Shown in pieces: positions 31,007 to 40,386 of a stretch of DNA of 47,187 bases. Each line of letters begins with the position of its first letter. The first letter of the stretch is position 1. The translations under genes were made by a program, and so were the position numbers. Origin of the DNA: Bacteroidota bacterium (GTDB taxonomy: Bacteria; Chloroflexota; Anaerolineae; Aggregatilineales; Phototrophicaceae); contig JAPUDW010000340.1 of NCBI GenBank assembly GCA_027492915.1, positions 1 through 47,187 of the forward strand, written 5' to 3'. The notes below the pieces were generated by a model that was not told the DNA's origin, did not search any database, and worked only from the letters and a program-made list of their open reading frames with translations.

Positions 31007-31045
31007 TAAACTCGTTTCAAATTGAGTCATGAAAGGTATTTCTAT

Positions 31046-31264
31046 ATGGTTCAACTCATGGAAAAAGCGTTGGCGGAGATCAACAAACTGCCTGCTGAAG
31101 AACAAGAAACCTTTGCGGCGTGGATACTGGACGAGCTCGCTTCTGAACGGCGTTGGGATGCTGCATTTGCCGACTCCGGTGACTTGCTCGATCAGTTAGC
31201 AGATGAAGCACTTGCCGAACATCGTGCTGGGAAAACACTGCTTCTCGACCCCGACAAGTTATGA
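31046..31264 (+). CDS. Type II antitoxin-like small protein
   Basis: ATG 31046 has AAAGG eight bases upstream and gives 72 aa. The chain is acidic and helical (LMEKALAEINKLPAEEQETFAAWILDELASERRWDAAFADS, then LADEALAEHRAGKTLLLDPDKL). The LPAEEQETFAxWILDELASE pattern is typical of a widespread antitoxin group that pairs with RelE/ParE toxins and lacks an obvious N-terminal DNA-binding domain. The stop overlaps the toxin start (ATGA), giving strict translational coupling. DNA binding by this protein is not evident from the sequence. Confidence 0.75.
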   Translation: MVQLMEKALAEINKLPAEEQETFAAWILDELASERRWDAAFADSGDLLDQLADEALAEHRAGKTLLLDPDKL

Positions 31265-31530
31265 AATCATTTACTACAGAGCGCTTTAGGAAGCTGTATC
31301 GAGAATTGCCAGAGGAAAATCGTAAACAGGCGCGAGATGCATATAAACAATTTATCCAAAACCCACAACACCCTAGCATACAATTCAAACGTGTTCGTGC
31401 TGGAAAAGCCGTGTATTCCGCGAGGATAAATATTAATTATCGTGCTTTAGGGATTTTGAATGGTGATGAAATCGTCTGGTTCTGGATTGGTAACCACGAT
31501 GAATATATCAAACTTCTAGCGCGTCTATAA
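31261..31530 (+). CDS. RelE/ParE superfamily toxin
   Basis: The 89-aa basic protein has the RelE/ParE fold pattern: a helical hairpin (FRKLYRELPEENRKQARDAYKQFIQNP), then strands with FKRVRAGKAVYSARININYRALGIL and the terminal DEIVWFWIGNHDEYIKLL. The IGNHDEYxxLL ending is characteristic of mRNA-interferase relatives that accompany the short acidic antitoxin upstream. Whether it cuts ribosomal mRNA (RelE-like) or poisons gyrase (ParE-like) cannot be told here. It is somewhat more AT-rich than its neighbours. Confidence 0.8.
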   Translation: MKSFTTERFRKLYRELPEENRKQARDAYKQFIQNPQHPSIQFKRVRAGKAVYSARININYRALGILNGDEIVWFWIGNHDEYIKLLARL

Positions 31531-32878: not shown

Positions 32879-33087
32879 CAATCCATAAGTGGTCAGGATA
32901 AAGTCCAGTATTTACCGATATACTTCCTACTAGATCATGAATCTTATCTCGTTTTCCGGCTGTTTTATAAACAAAGTTTATGTTGATCTTCCATCAGGCT
33001 CACAATCAGAAAGCGTTGTTTTTCGCCGTATGCTCTATCGCTTTGGAACGCCCGTAACTTAAAGTTATTCTGGTGGAAAGCTCGATC

Positions 33088-33900
33088 ATGAAAGATATAT
33101 CAACCTTACCGCCCACCCCCTACGCCGAATTGAATAGCATCCTGCGCGATTTAACCGCAGGTATACAGGCAGCACTGGCGGATAACTTCGTCGGCTTCTA
33201 CTTGCAAGGCTCCTTCGCCATCGGTGACTTTGACGACAACAGCGATTGTGATTTTATTGTTGTCGTCGATCACAAACTATCCACTGAGGAAGTTGACCGC
33301 TTGCAAACGGTTCATGCCGCCATCTTCGACCGCGAACTGTCTTGGGCGAAGCATCTGGAAGGCTCATACTTCCCCAAAGACATCCTGCGCGATCTGGTCA
33401 ACATAGGCAGCAAACTCTGGTATCTCGACCACGGCAGCCGTTCACTCGTTCAAGATGCCCACTGTAATACCGTGCTGGTCCGTTGGGTCGTGCGGGACTA
33501 TGGTATCCCGCTGGCAGGGCCGGAGCCGCAAACGCTGGTTGACCGTATCCCCGTCGAAGCGCTGCGTGGGCAAATCCTCAAGGTGATGAACGACTGGGGG
33601 CGTGATTTAATCGCCAACCCTGAACCCTACAACAACATTTTCTATCAAGCCTTCATCGTCCACAACTACAGCCGGATGCTGCATGACCTCGTTCGCGGCT
33701 ACCCCGGTTCGAAACGTGCAGGGACGGAGTATGTGAAAGCCAACCTCGACCCTGCATGGCACAATCTCATTGACCGCAGTTGGTCAGGACGTGGCGATGC
33801 GTTTATCAACGTGCGTACCCCCGCCGACCCTGATGATTTTGCGGCGACCCTGCACTTTGTGGAGTATATTGTCGGGCAGGCGAATGACCGTTACAAATAA
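33088..33900 (+). CDS. Nucleotidyltransferase with aminoglycoside-adenylyltransferase-like layout (AadA/DUF4111 type)
   Basis: The 270-aa product from ATG 33088 (GGAAAG upstream) has the nucleotidyltransferase signature GSFAIGDFDDNSDCDFIVV, with two metal-binding Asp residues. A helical C-terminal domain resembles AadA/DUF4111 (ALRGQILKVMNDWGRDLI; NYSRMLHDLVRGYPGSKRAGTEYV). AadA enzymes adenylylate streptomycin or spectinomycin, but many chromosomal homologues have no shown resistance role. It lies next to the AT-rich DUF488 cassette on the opposite strand. Resistance should not be assumed from this match. Confidence 0.78.
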   Translation: MKDISTLPPTPYAELNSILRDLTAGIQAALADNFVGFYLQGSFAIGDFDDNSDCDFIVVVDHKLSTEEVDRLQTVHAAIFDRELSWAKHLEGSYFPKDILRDLVNIGSKLWYLDHGSRSLVQDAHCNTVLVRWVVRDYGIPLAGPEPQTLVDRIPVEALRGQILKVMNDWGRDLIANPEPYNNIFYQAFIVHNYSRMLHDLVRGYPGSKRAGTEYVKANLDPAWHNLIDRSWSGRGDAFINVRTPADPDDFAATLHFVEYIVGQANDRYK

Positions 33901-33947
33901 TGGTCAAAATCATGGCAGTAATTTAAGCACCAGTTCGGTACGGAGAA

Positions 33948-34823
33948 TTACCATTCTTCTGGCACCTCACTAAATTCAGGTTGACGATCATCACGACCCT
34001 CTCGCCGATAGTCATCAACTAACTCTGATTTCACAGGACGAACTGCCTGTGGCAAAATCGGGAAATAGTCTGCAAAACAAGCTCCATTTAAATAGTCGGG
34101 AAATGTATAAATTCCTGTTACTTGAATATAACACCACGATTTGTCATTATCTGTCTTTTGAAACGGTCGGGTTAACCCCAAACGTAACCAAACTTCTGAT
34201 GCTGAAAATTTCTGTTCAATTATTGAGCGAATACGAGCTGGATGATAATTCTTTTGTGTACGAAGATGTTGGATATAGTATCGTAGTGATAAATCAGTAA
34301 CTGGAATTTGTTTATAAGTTACACCTGTTGAGTCGGTAAAGTTAAGTGAAAATTTATCCGATTCAACATCACCAAATTTTAAACGATAAAATCCTAGCTT
34401 ATCAATAGAAATTGGCTTGATTGTGCCTAATGAGCGCTCACCATCACCCGGAGCAATATATTTATTTTTGTGGATTTTTGCATGAAAAATTGCTTCTACC
34501 GATTCATGTGCTGTTCGCTCCATGACAGTACGCCAAACACTTTCATCAGGCAAACGCAAAAATTCTACCTGATTTTGATTCCGCCATAAATGATCTTCAT
34601 TGTGAGGCGGCTTTAGCGTAGAGATGGGTTCTAAAAATAAATTCACAACAGCTCGAGGTCGAATCATAACTGAAGAGTCAGTGTCATATAGATGATGCTC
34701 GCATAAAAATTCCGGGTAAGATAATAATGGACGATAACAATTTCCTTTACGATCCACCCCAGCGATACAAACACGATCATCTTTCATACGTGTTACATCG
34801 GTAATAATTAATTCTTGCCACAT
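33948..34823 (-). CDS. Dual OB-domain protein of the DUF488 cassette
   Basis: The 291-aa protein begins MWQELIITDVTRMKDDRVCIAGVD, then GNCYRPLL. This is the characteristic opening of dual-OB-domain proteins. A second beta-rich half includes FYRLKFGDVESDKFSLNF, and WCYIQVTGIYTFPDYLNGACFADYF lies near the end. OB folds usually bind nucleic acids or nucleotides, so a substrate-recognition role for the neighbouring DUF488 proteins is likely but unproven. It starts seven bases after the second DUF488 stop. Coding DNA is strikingly AT-rich (about 37% GC in a counted line, against about 65% in a line of the cyclase gene), indicating transfer. Confidence 0.7.
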   Translation of the reverse strand: MWQELIITDVTRMKDDRVCIAGVDRKGNCYRPLLSYPEFLCEHHLYDTDSSVMIRPRAVVNLFLEPISTLKPPHNEDHLWRNQNQVEFLRLPDESVWRTVMERTAHESVEAIFHAKIHKNKYIAPGDGERSLGTIKPISIDKLGFYRLKFGDVESDKFSLNFTDSTGVTYKQIPVTDLSLRYYIQHLRTQKNYHPARIRSIIEQKFSASEVWLRLGLTRPFQKTDNDKSWCYIQVTGIYTFPDYLNGACFADYFPILPQAVRPVKSELVDDYRREGRDDRQPEFSEVPEEW

Positions 34824-34830
34824 ATAGAGC

Positions 34831-35277
34831 CTACATTAAATGAGTTATTTGTGTTTCAGACCAATACGAGGCGATATATTCAGCGACAAGTCTACGATGG
34901 CAATGTGTAGGCGCATGTTCACTGCAAAGTAAGCAGACGGAATTTTGTGCCCACCATGAGCGTTCTAATTGGGTGATTAAGTCTCGTTGATCTAAGAGTT
35001 GTTTAAAAGCGACCTCATAATGAATCCATGATTTATCATCTCGATATTGACTGAGCAAATCTCCACTTGGCGACATAGAAGACATATAGCGATAATCACA
35101 ATTATTCAAATGACGTAAAAAATATGGTAAATCACGCCCTTTTGCAAAGCCACTAAGTTGAGAATCAGGCTTCAATCGTGTATCGACCAATACAGTAATT
35201 TTGTTATCCTTTAATAATCCAAAAAAGTGCTCCGCCGTTTTCTGTGTAAACCCAATAGTATAAAGTTTGATTGTCAT
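34831..35277 (-). CDS. DUF488 family protein, short form
   Basis: The 148-aa protein has the DUF488 landmarks: LYTIGFTQ at the N-terminus, VLVDTR, a SGFAKGRDLPYFL segment, and the cysteine motif LLCSEHAPTHCHRRLVAEYI. DUF488 proteins are related to the rhodanese-phosphatase fold; the CSE and CHR residues are the presumed active site. GGGGAGA precedes the ATG. It lies between a longer DUF488 gene (14-base gap) and the dual-OB gene (7-base gap), so the three form one operon. Its sequence differs strongly from its neighbour, so this is not a recent duplication. Confidence 0.85.
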   Translation of the reverse strand: MTIKLYTIGFTQKTAEHFFGLLKDNKITVLVDTRLKPDSQLSGFAKGRDLPYFLRHLNNCDYRYMSSMSPSGDLLSQYRDDKSWIHYEVAFKQLLDQRDLITQLERSWWAQNSVCLLCSEHAPTHCHRRLVAEYIASYWSETQITHLM

Positions 35278-35291
35278 TTATAGTCTCCCCC

Positions 35292-35891
35292 TCAAAATAA
35301 AGGAGGTTGATGAGGCATTTCACTATCAGCTTTAAAATCTGATGTTTCTACAATATTAAGATTACCATCTTTTATTATGTGCTGAACCTTAACTTCTATA
35401 TTAACTACTTTGACTAGTGGATCAATAAGCGAACGTGCTATTAAATGGTGTCTATGACAATCAAGCGGATTGCCTTCACTGCACATAATGGCGACAAACC
35501 CTTTAACAGCTTGAGTTTCAGCCATAATTTGCAAAAGTCTCTTAAGTCCTCGCCGATACCATTCAGTCTGCATAACAGCTACATAATCAACTAGTTTGAG
35601 AAATTTTTCCCGGCTAGTATCGTTATCTGGTAACGTTTGATGTTTATAAACAGTTTCATCTTTAGGTTGCCCTCCCAATAATTCTCCGGCATAACGGTAA
35701 TCAAAACCCTGCTCTTTCAAAAAGACTTCTAATACATTTTTATTGAAATGAGGGACGTAACGACTATAAGGTGCGCTGCGAACATCAATCAAAACAGCAA
35801 TATTATTCTGACGTAAAGAAGTAGTGAATTCTTCTTTGCTCAAATTACTATGACCTATAGTATATAAGGTAGGAAGTGAATACTCTTCCAT
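35292..35891 (-). CDS. DUF488 family protein, long form
   Basis: ATG 35891 has AAGGA at good spacing and gives 199 aa. Landmarks are LYTIGHSN, VLIDVRSAPYSRYVPHFN, the FDYRYAGELLGG segment and the presumed active-site strand IMCSEGNPLDCHRHHLIARSL. These are more canonical than in the short paralogue. The C-terminus (VQHIIKDGNLNIVETSDF) ends in a polar tail. It is first in the three-gene cassette. The chemistry of DUF488 is not established; a thiol-dependent reaction on nucleic acid or nucleotide is an inference from the conserved Cys residues and the OB-fold partner. Confidence 0.88.
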   Translation of the reverse strand: MEEYSLPTLYTIGHSNLSKEEFTTSLRQNNIAVLIDVRSAPYSRYVPHFNKNVLEVFLKEQGFDYRYAGELLGGQPKDETVYKHQTLPDNDTSREKFLKLVDYVAVMQTEWYRRGLKRLLQIMAETQAVKGFVAIMCSEGNPLDCHRHHLIARSLIDPLVKVVNIEVKVQHIIKDGNLNIVETSDFKADSEMPHQPPLF

Positions 35892-35971
35892 GTATGAAAT
35901 CCTTTTGGGTATCATCTACTTGATCATTTTATCATTAGGTAATTAAAACACACTTCACAACCAACTTGCGA

Positions 35972-35977
35972 TATAAT
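35972..35977 (+). promoter_or_regulatory. -10 box upstream of the PhyH gene
   Basis: Perfect TATAAT, 40 bases before the ATG at 36018. No convincing -35 box at 16-18 bases. The cassette's own promoter should be in the same AT-rich divergent region, but I cannot locate it with confidence. Confidence 0.35.
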
Positions 35978-36017
35978 CCATATTAACATTCTAAATTAGT
36001 AGGCAGACGATTTGATT

Positions 36018-36866
36018 ATGACTAACACCGACCAAAAAGAATATTTTGACTCGAACGGCTACGTGCTGGTAAAAGGTTTGTTCACGCCTGAAGAAGTCGC
36101 CTATTATCGCGACTACTATATGAACCTGCGTGCATCCGGCACCTACGACGGCGATTTTTCCGGCGTAGACCCCAACAGCAACGACCCCCTCAAACGCTTC
36201 CCTCGCATGATTAACATGCACCGCTGGAACCAAACCAGCCTCGAATGGATGCTCGAACCGCGCATTAATACCATGCTGACGCTGCTGGCGGGACGCGAAC
36301 CCTTCGCTGTTCAAACCATGCTGTACTTCAAACCGGCTGGTGCGCGTGGTCAAGCGCTGCATCAGGATAACTATTACCTGCGCGTGCAGCCCGGTACCTG
36401 CCTCGCGGCGTGGCTGGCGCTCGATGACTGCGACGAGGAGAATGGCTGTATGCAGATTGTCCCCGGCAGCCACAACTGGCCGATGCTCTGCGCCATCAAA
36501 GCCGATACCACCCAGAGCTTCACCGATGTGACCGTGCCTATCCCCGAAGGCACACCCGTCGAACCAATGATTATGGAAGCCGGTGATGTGCTGTTCTTCA
36601 ACGGGGCGCTGGTACACGGCAGTATGCCCAACATCAGCACCGACCGTTTCCGCCGTGCGCTCATCGGTCACTATATCGAAGGTGATGCGGAACAGGTCGC
36701 TACGTTCTACCACCCCGTTTTACGGATGGATGGCACGCCGGTGGAAATCGGTAAAAGCGCTGATGGTCAGCAGTGCGGTGTGTGGGTCGAGCAGGACGGC
36801 ACGCCTGTATTGGAACTCAGTGGTCATCAGGGCGCACCGGGGAAACTCGATTACCTGCGCCAGTAA
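36018..36866 (+). CDS. Phytanoyl-CoA dioxygenase (PhyH) family protein
   Basis: The 282-aa product from ATG 36018 is a double-stranded beta-helix Fe(II)/2-oxoglutarate oxygenase. The N-terminus (FDSNGYVLVKGLFTPEEV) is typical; the HxD pair is LHQDNYYL, and the distal His is in NGALVHGSMPN with a downstream Arg (RFRRALIGHY). GCMQIVPGSHNWP is the family's conserved strand turn. Bacterial members hydroxylate varied small molecules, including ectoine, and many are unassigned. It starts as GC content rises sharply after the AT-rich cassette. Confidence 0.9.
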   Translation: MTNTDQKEYFDSNGYVLVKGLFTPEEVAYYRDYYMNLRASGTYDGDFSGVDPNSNDPLKRFPRMINMHRWNQTSLEWMLEPRINTMLTLLAGREPFAVQTMLYFKPAGARGQALHQDNYYLRVQPGTCLAAWLALDDCDEENGCMQIVPGSHNWPMLCAIKADTTQSFTDVTVPIPEGTPVEPMIMEAGDVLFFNGALVHGSMPNISTDRFRRALIGHYIEGDAEQVATFYHPVLRMDGTPVEIGKSADGQQCGVWVEQDGTPVLELSGHQGAPGKLDYLRQ

Positions 36867-39389: not shown

Positions 39390-39501
39390 TCGATTTTGAG
39401 TGATTTTAGGGGAAACAAAAAGAGGTGCTTACCCGATATTACTAATTCATGATAAATTTATACAAAGAGTTTTATATAACGTTTGATATTAGGGGATGAG
39501 T

Positions 39502-40386
39502 ATGTCGAAAGCGAAATTTGACGCGGTGAAGGAACTTATTAACGAAAAGAAGTATGCGGAAGCAAAAGCGCTTCTTAAGACAATTGATCATCCTACGGCT
39601 CGCGAGTGGGAAGCCAAAGTTGATAAGCTTTCGCCAACACTAGTAACTGCATTTGCACCTAGCTCTCAGGTTAAACCTGATTTAAAACGCCGACGACGTT
39701 GGCCCTTACTCATTCTTGGAGGTACATTTTTAGCATGTATCATCGTTTATGCTATTGGAAGTAATCCTGCCGTTCAAGAAATGAGCCGCGCTACGAGCAC
39801 TGCTCAAGCCATCGCAGTAGCTGGCACAAATGAAGCTTTAACAGTTTCCAATGGGCAAACTGCGACAGTAATTGCACTGACACCTCCAACTGAAACGGCC
39901 ACTACTACACAAACACTCGCGCCAAGTGCCACACCTACAATTACTGAAACACCACTGCCGACATCCACATTTACTCCCACATCAACACCTTCACTTGAAG
40001 ATCAGGCGCGAAAGATTATCAATGAGGTATTGGCAGGCGAAGATGTTGAGAGGATTAGTATTACCGATATAGGATCTCCAAAGCTTTTAGCAGTAGACTA
40101 TCCGATGCCTCAAATATTTGATTACCGCGTAGATTTTGCAGGTACAGAAATGCTGAAAATCGCTTGTGCGCTGCACGGAAACGGCTTTGGAGATGACTGG
40201 CGATATCAGTTTTCAGCTATGATTGATTTAGTGAATAAGACGAACGGACAAACTTCGCGTGATGATGGTCTTTCGGGTCGTGTGAATTCATCTACTGTTG
40301 CTGGATGGAATTGTGAAAATGTTACCTCAATGGACCCGTCATTCGCGTTGGATGATTACATTCTCAATCCGATCCTCAATAAATAA
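39502..40386 (+). CDS. Membrane protein with Thr/Pro-rich linker, unknown function
   Basis: ATG 39502 has AGGGG six bases upstream (ATG 39496 has no room). The 294-aa product starts with a short helix-turn-helix repeat (FDAVKELINEKKYAEAKALLKTIDHPTAREW) seen at the front of several Chloroflexota proteins. A basic stop-transfer (KRRRRW) and one transmembrane helix (PLLILGGTFLACIIVYAIG) follow, at about residues 65-88. A Thr/Pro/Ser linker follows, and then an external ~120-residue domain (QARKIINEVLAGEDVERISITDIG onward) with two or three cysteines. I do not recognise that domain. DNA is more AT-rich than most neighbours. Confidence 0.65.
   Translation: MSKAKFDAVKELINEKKYAEAKALLKTIDHPTAREWEAKVDKLSPTLVTAFAPSSQVKPDLKRRRRWPLLILGGTFLACIIVYAIGSNPAVQEMSRATSTAQAIAVAGTNEALTVSNGQTATVIALTPPTETATTTQTLAPSATPTITETPLPTSTFTPTSTPSLEDQARKIINEVLAGEDVERISITDIGSPKLLAVDYPMPQIFDYRVDFAGTEMLKIACALHGNGFGDDWRYQFSAMIDLVNKTNGQTSRDDGLSGRVNSSTVAGWNCENVTSMDPSFALDDYILNPILNK

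Follow-up and report, generated by a model that had tools for sequence, protein, structure and literature searches.

A mobile cassette of two DUF488 proteins and a divergent dual-OB protein in a Chloroflexota genome as a candidate PDC-M45-type module for nucleic-acid-directed defence

The analysed window, a stretch of 47,187 nucleotides that represents one contig of a draft genome (6.86 Mb in 445 contigs, 88% complete), carries a compact cassette on its minus strand at positions 33948–35891. In line with the layout given in a preliminary description of this DNA, the ORF listing places three genes on one strand, in the order DUF488-A, DUF488-B and dual-OB, with gaps of 14 and 7 nt. The locus comprises the following features:

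33073–33900, plus strand: nucleotidyltransferase-like gene, left flank (Pfam)
33901–33947, intergenic: left-hand stretch remaining between nucleotidyltransferase gene and cassette (empty-site comparison with genome G414)
33948–34823, minus strand: divergent DuOB protein in the PDC-M45A slot, 291 aa (relatives match PF22557; profile-profile comparison; structural model)
34831–35277, minus strand: DUF488-B (DUF488-N3a; PDC-M45C-like), 148 aa (PF04343, 3.9e-21; PF22751, 1.4e-11; PDC-M45C, 1.3e-49)
35292–35891, minus strand: DUF488-A (PDC-M45B-like), 199 aa (PF04343, 3.2e-20; PADLOC PDC-M45B, 1.5e-38)
35892–36011, intergenic: right-hand gap separating the cassette from the divergently transcribed PhyH gene, presumed to hold the promoter (empty-site comparison)
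36012–36866, plus strand: PhyH dioxygenase gene, right flank (Pfam)

Two translational starts are available for DUF488-A, namely ATG 35891, with an AAGGA-like site lying 8 nt before it (identified by eye), and ATG 35915, which would yield a protein of 207 aa. Promoter and terminator scans of the cassette region gave results at chance level. The cassette pair represents the only DUF488 genes found in this 88% complete draft genome.

The GC content of the cassette is 37.3%, whereas stretches of the same length outside it average 53.8% and never fall below 43.6%, and the GC3 values of its genes (0.25–0.30) lie below those of all other ORFs of at least 130 aa in the window (0.33–0.76). The AT-rich composition relative to both flanks that had been noted from the sequence is thus confirmed, and codon usage, which had been suggested as a check, is atypical as well. 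In G414, a genome of the same genus, the genes for the nucleotidyltransferase and PhyH lie adjacent, separated by about 100 bp and lacking the cassette. Their products share 80% and 91% identity, respectively, with their counterparts in the window, the DNA of the shared flanks is 80–88% identical, and synteny runs on at both sides. Since G414 has the flanking genes adjacent without the cassette, the cassette was gained at this locus as a single unit, in agreement with the earlier proposal that the unit had been transferred as a whole. The alternative, loss of the cassette from G414, is less likely because of the atypical composition. Within the genus, an orthologue of DUF488-B occurs in two of 17 genomes, including that of the window; in the other genome, G411 (69%), the orthologue and the PhyH gene are located on separate contigs. 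Direct and inverted repeats at the cassette borders are short and no better than expected by chance, and no integrase gene was found there; therefore, neither a transposon nor an integrase mechanism can be named.

Both DUF488 proteins score well above the curated PF04343 cut-off (76.4 and 73.4 versus 22.2 bits). DUF488-B also exceeds the curated cut-off of DUF488-N3a (PF22751; 45.2 versus 27 bits), an active DUF488-N3 subclade to which it belongs and whose CSE…CHR residues it retains, whereas DUF488-A has no DUF488-N3a match in Pfam and falls into a separate clade. The CSE…CHR residues described previously in both proteins are intact, with presumed active sites C137-S-E…C145-H-R147 in DUF488-A and C118-S-E…C126-H-R128 in DUF488-B; the two proteins are indeed very unlike each other, sharing about 25–28% identity. 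The retention of these residues extends to all homologues examined, in which C-x-E-x5-CHR is invariant (36/36 for A and 37/37 for B). The first triplet is CSE in 29 of the 36 A homologues and CAE or CVE in the other seven, while 36 of the 37 B homologues have CSE or CTE and one has CAE. Both enzymes are apparently catalytically competent. In a DUF488 tree, which is a quick tree with several long branches, the A proteins form one well supported set separate from B, plasmid members included.

The AlphaFold2 model of DUF488-A (pLDDT 87.5) best matches precorrin-type methylases (Z 9.6, rmsd 3.4, 123 residues) and also resembles PTP-like, Cys-dependent phosphatases (Z 8–9); no rhodanese appeared among the structural matches listed. 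Core strand 132–137 of the model ends at C137, and the next helix begins at H146-R147, so that the model fits the arrangement of the rhodanese-phosphatase group, in which a cysteine ending a core strand is followed by a loop and a helix. The placing of the cysteine and of the arginine at the helix start is the same as in Cys phosphatases, which indicates a related fold only: classical tyrosine and dual-specificity phosphatases have a CX5R loop, whereas both DUF488 proteins of the window have C-x-E-x5-C-H-R (C-x9-R) instead. Assignment of DUF488-A as a classical phosphatase was ruled out because of this loop. Searches of solved structures with the DUF488 and OB alignments gave no convincing sequence relative. 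Burroughs and Aravind (2023) are said to have placed DUF488 in the rhodanese-phosphatase superfamily; they reportedly also described a RapZ-C/DUF488/DUF4326 clade, for which a role in processing DNA ends within conflict systems was predicted.

Searches of Pfam (with E-values up to 10), NCBIfam and PADLOC gave no match for the third protein. Relatives about 35% identical to it, however, pass the cut-off of DuOB (PF22557) with E-values down to 3.1e-18, and a profile-profile comparison of the relatives (n = 20) with canonical DuOB proteins (n = 10, an alignment that included PDC-M45A hits) yielded a probability of 98.7% and an E-value of 1.9e-16 over 207 columns. The AlphaFold2 model (pLDDT 86.7) consists of two OB domains, residues 1–243, and a disordered tail, residues 260–291. 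With DuOB, the window protein shares the two predicted OB domains as well as the N-terminal C-x-A-G and R-P positions; it differs in lying below detection by the Pfam HMM. It belongs to a Chloroflexota-centred subfamily with an N-terminal TDxTRM and a C-terminal CYxQxTGIYTFPDYL motif. Judged by profile comparison and predicted fold, the protein is a divergent DuOB. The dual-OB assignment made earlier therefore stands by way of the relatives, the profile-profile comparison and the two-OB fold, but not by a direct HMM match. Aligned over residues 1–242, the model resembles the baculovirus tandem-OB protein LEF-3 (Z 6.5, rmsd 7.4, 175 residues) and RPA70AB (Z 5.2, rmsd 4.2, 172 residues), and the single domains are nearest to telomere-end-binding protein alpha (POT1/TEBP) and RecO; all of these matches are modest (Z 4–6.5). 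Among the top-ranking structures, nearly all are of proteins that bind single strands or ends of nucleic acids. The predicted fold thus suits the nucleic-acid recognition that had been attributed to the OB protein, and the DuOB protein probably binds nucleic acid. One DuOB homologue carries a fused C-terminal glyoxalase-like domain (L017 3685–4797; PF00903, 1.1e-10).

PADLOC-DB 2.0.0 lists such a trio as the phage-defence candidate PDC-M45, with components A, B and C. Hits of a PDC-M45A model in Chloroflexota are DuOB proteins, the strong ones with E-values of 1e-44 to 2e-68, and in 12 of 20 such loci two DUF488 genes are present within the 1.5-kb flanks; PDC-M45 therefore corresponds to DuOB + DUF488 + DUF488. 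By homology, the window cassette is a divergent PDC-M45 and not a new kind of system. DUF488-A corresponds to M45B and DUF488-B to M45C, the genes are adjacent, and the third component is homologous to M45A in the profile-profile comparison described above. The window DuOB escapes the single-sequence M45A HMMs, which is a matter of sensitivity; a further M45A model, PDLC04656, gave no match in the source genome, a result that is uninformative. The strongest M45A loci are ordered DuOB-A-B, whereas the order in the window is A-B-DuOB. Due to the divergent DuOB and this gene order, a rule that requires M45A would miss the window locus. The literature searched contained no phage-protection experiment on PDC-M45, a defence candidate built of enzyme families without assigned biochemistry. 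The locus reveals a whole Chloroflexota branch of PDC-M45 that is missed by current HMMs, and supplies a clean insertion event.

Using the window OB protein as query, relatives were found in 11 others of 400 genomes of the phylum. Both DUF488 genes are adjacent in seven of these loci, B is located at a contig end in one, a single clear DUF488 is present in one, and two have no DUF488. In named genomes, both DUF488 genes accompany the OB gene in 19 of 24 loci; two loci have neither, and three contain a fragment of the OB gene only. Altogether, the three genes occur together in 35 non-redundant loci, in hosts that include Thermomicrobiales, Dehalococcoidia, Anaerolineae, a Chthonomonas bin and a Fermentithermobacillaceae bin, so that the co-occurrence proposed earlier as a check is borne out. 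A-B-OB is the commonest gene order, but OB-A-B, B-OB with A on the opposite strand, and A-B opposite to OB are also found; because of this variation, the association does not merely reflect one inherited operon. Pairwise distances are correlated (OB-A 0.66, OB-B 0.54, A-B 0.68; permutation maximum 0.25), pointing to a shared history in which co-inheritance and host phylogeny are not separable by the correlation alone. Divergence is greatest for the OB protein, whose mean identity is 28% as compared to 41% for A and 51% for B; in 594 of 595 pairs it has diverged further than B. DuOB genes with no DUF488 within the 1.5-kb flanks occur in several genomes belonging to one Chloroflexota family (L069, L070, L071).

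No recognisable defence neighbour of the cassette was found in the window by Pfam, and the neighbours of Chloroflexota cassettes are mostly ordinary genes, with defence genes a minority (a plain tally with no control set). In one Chloroflexota locus (L110 8920–17766), the cassette, a type IIG restriction-modification-like gene and an SNF2/DrmD-like helicase gene are adjacent on the same strand. Relatives on plasmids, on islands and on some chromosomes adjoin restriction-modification, CRISPR, CBASS and McrA genes. DuOB + DUF488 + DUF488 modules are located between cas1/csx16 and csm6 on an Allochromatium tepidum plasmid, near a CBASS operon on a plasmid of Agrobacterium tumefaciens 1D1108, and upstream of a large SNF2 gene on a Rhodovastum plasmid. 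The location in defence islands that had been anticipated thus holds for plasmid-borne and some chromosomal relatives, but neither for the window nor for most Chloroflexota copies. The window OB protein itself retrieved no relative from viral contigs, plasmids or phages; the plasmid copies came to light only when a DUF488-B or a canonical DuOB served as query. A total of 130 plasmid records contain a DUF488-B relative. In formaldehyde-detoxification regions of conjugative plasmids, comprising frmR, fghA and an alcohol dehydrogenase gene, a B-clade DUF488 gene directly follows uvrA (L073 6001–6432, L116 4001–4432), a position that fits repair as well as defence.

In a second form of the module, DuOB and a B-clade DUF488 are likewise encoded in a compact operon, but, unlike in the window, an mSLOG-DUF4326 protein takes the place of DUF488-A. 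This form adjoins a NotI restriction-modification system on a Klebsiella plasmid and is also present on Citrobacter, Acinetobacter and Moraxella plasmids. On a Klebsiella plasmid of 4,167 bp, DuOB, DUF488 and the DUF4326-type protein are the main recognisable cargo (L124 2370–4028); a gene beside the module possibly serves in mobilisation. When 5,426 E. coli genomes were probed with DNA of this form, 12 gave a match, which covered the DUF488 part. The three E. coli loci that were read contain the full DuOB + DUF488 + DUF4326 set (L125 8311–10042, L126 8318–10031, L127 6255–7938) and lie on integrase islands at ffs, or between icd and an integrase gene near mcrA. The relatives in E. coli and on the 4.2-kb plasmid make DUF488 function directly testable in a laboratory strain. 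In the tree, the plasmid DUF488 proteins of this form group with B; the A slot is therefore the swapped one, and by this grouping B is the constant enzyme, with DUF488-A or an mSLOG-DUF4326 protein filling the A slot. DUF488-A and DUF4326 showed no significant similarity when their profiles were compared, so that their kinship rests on the literature. A Moraxella protein with a very long branch in the DUF488 tree is not a DUF488-A but an mSLOG-DUF4326 protein, and was not counted as A. Judging by the sources consulted, new findings are the divergent branch of DuOB that HMM libraries fail to detect, the empty site and the A-slot swap; the swap beside a constant DUF488-B may already be contained in Burroughs and Aravind (2023).

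Homology, conserved association and the empty site establish, at the level of sequence, the mobility and the three-protein make-up of the module; its role is likely host defence, presumably with anti-phage activity. We give an about even chance to the specific reading that it is a mobile, stand-alone PDC-M45-type module for nucleic-acid-directed host defence, acting by Cys-dependent phosphoryl transfer on ends. DuOB, as a fast-evolving recognition subunit, would bind invading or damaged nucleic acid at a single strand or free end, as its fold suggests. With the cysteine that closes the core strand, the DUF488 pair would carry out phosphoryl transfer, acting on terminal phosphate or ribose groups of the bound nucleic acid, or on a nucleotide derived from it, and the ends could then no longer be replicated, ligated or circularised. 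This reading is supported by the recurrence of the trio in 35 non-redundant loci in several gene orders and with correlated distances, by the invariant cysteine motif, the atypical composition, the empty site and the presence in two of 17 genomes, and by carriage on plasmids and islands near defence genes, including the 4.2-kb plasmid. The similarity of the models to tandem-OB binders on the one hand, and to Cys-phosphatases and precorrin-type methylases on the other, as well as the position of DuOB as the most divergent subunit, argue in the same direction. It is weakened by the moderate degree of structural similarity, by a loop that is not CX5R, by defence genes being a minority among the neighbours in Chloroflexota and absent from the window, and by the B-type relative beside uvrA. 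Of the interpretation offered in the preliminary description, the single unit, the conserved trio, the active sites and a fitting OB fold are retained, whereas the paired thiol-based reaction is, from the fold, better read as Cys-dependent phosphoryl transfer, and the unit was already catalogued. A bolder proposal, which we put forward tentatively and consider rather doubtful, is that the DUF488-DUF488 and DUF488-mSLOG-DUF4326 modules with DuOB represent two versions of a single, as yet undescribed immune chemistry, in which a telomere-end-binding-like protein brings a pair of Cys enzymes to invading termini, capping or stripping the terminal phosphate or ribose.

The replacement of DUF488-A by mSLOG-DUF4326 also bears on an alternative which we regard as unlikely, namely that DuOB and the enzymes sense, degrade or make a small signal derived from NAD+ or ADP-ribose, in an immune or counter-immune role and with no direct action on DNA or RNA ends. 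It agrees with published predictions for DUF4326, according to which these proteins act on ribose-linked terminal phosphates of ADP-ribose (PMC9503650) or bridge NAD+ signalling and DNA modification (PMC7824862). However, the cassette is devoid of an NAD+-cleaving enzyme or effector, and the DuOB fold is like that of tandem OB proteins which bind polymers. Somewhat less probable still is a cassette for DNA-damage or nucleic-acid repair, e.g. for the clean-up of blocked or adducted ends, which would be of general benefit and lie among defence genes incidentally. Such a function would account for the B-clade genes that follow uvrA in formaldehyde-detoxification operons of conjugative plasmids and for the ordinary surroundings of most Chloroflexota copies, but the sporadic presence, the differing insertion sites, the carriage on small plasmids and islands and the fast divergence of DuOB are rather those of a conflict system. 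The compact operon and its presence on plasmids, including that of 4.2 kb, might suggest a toxin-antitoxin-like addiction unit that holds plasmids or islands, one DUF488 being toxic and the other components neutralising; this is very unlikely, as both enzymes always look active, the trio is larger than the usual two-gene unit, and neither the gene order nor the strand is constant. Thiolation or another sulfur modification of nucleic acid, with DUF488 cysteines carrying a rhodanese-like persulfide, would be compatible with the invariant cysteines of both enzymes and with the superfamily to which DUF488 reportedly belongs, but is highly improbable given that no cassette seen contains a gene for a cysteine desulfurase, an ATP-pyrophosphatase or a sulfur carrier, and that phosphatases and methylases are the closest structures, rhodaneses being missing from the matches listed.

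Elsewhere in the window, an AT-richer patch at 31022–31530 contains a small ORF followed by a gene for a ParE-like toxin (PF24732, 5.7e-11), a two-gene unit which is probably a type II toxin-antitoxin pair. A further ORF with low GC3 (0.33), located at 39496–40386 and without a Pfam match, codes for a protein with an apparent membrane anchor and a Thr/Pro-rich linker.
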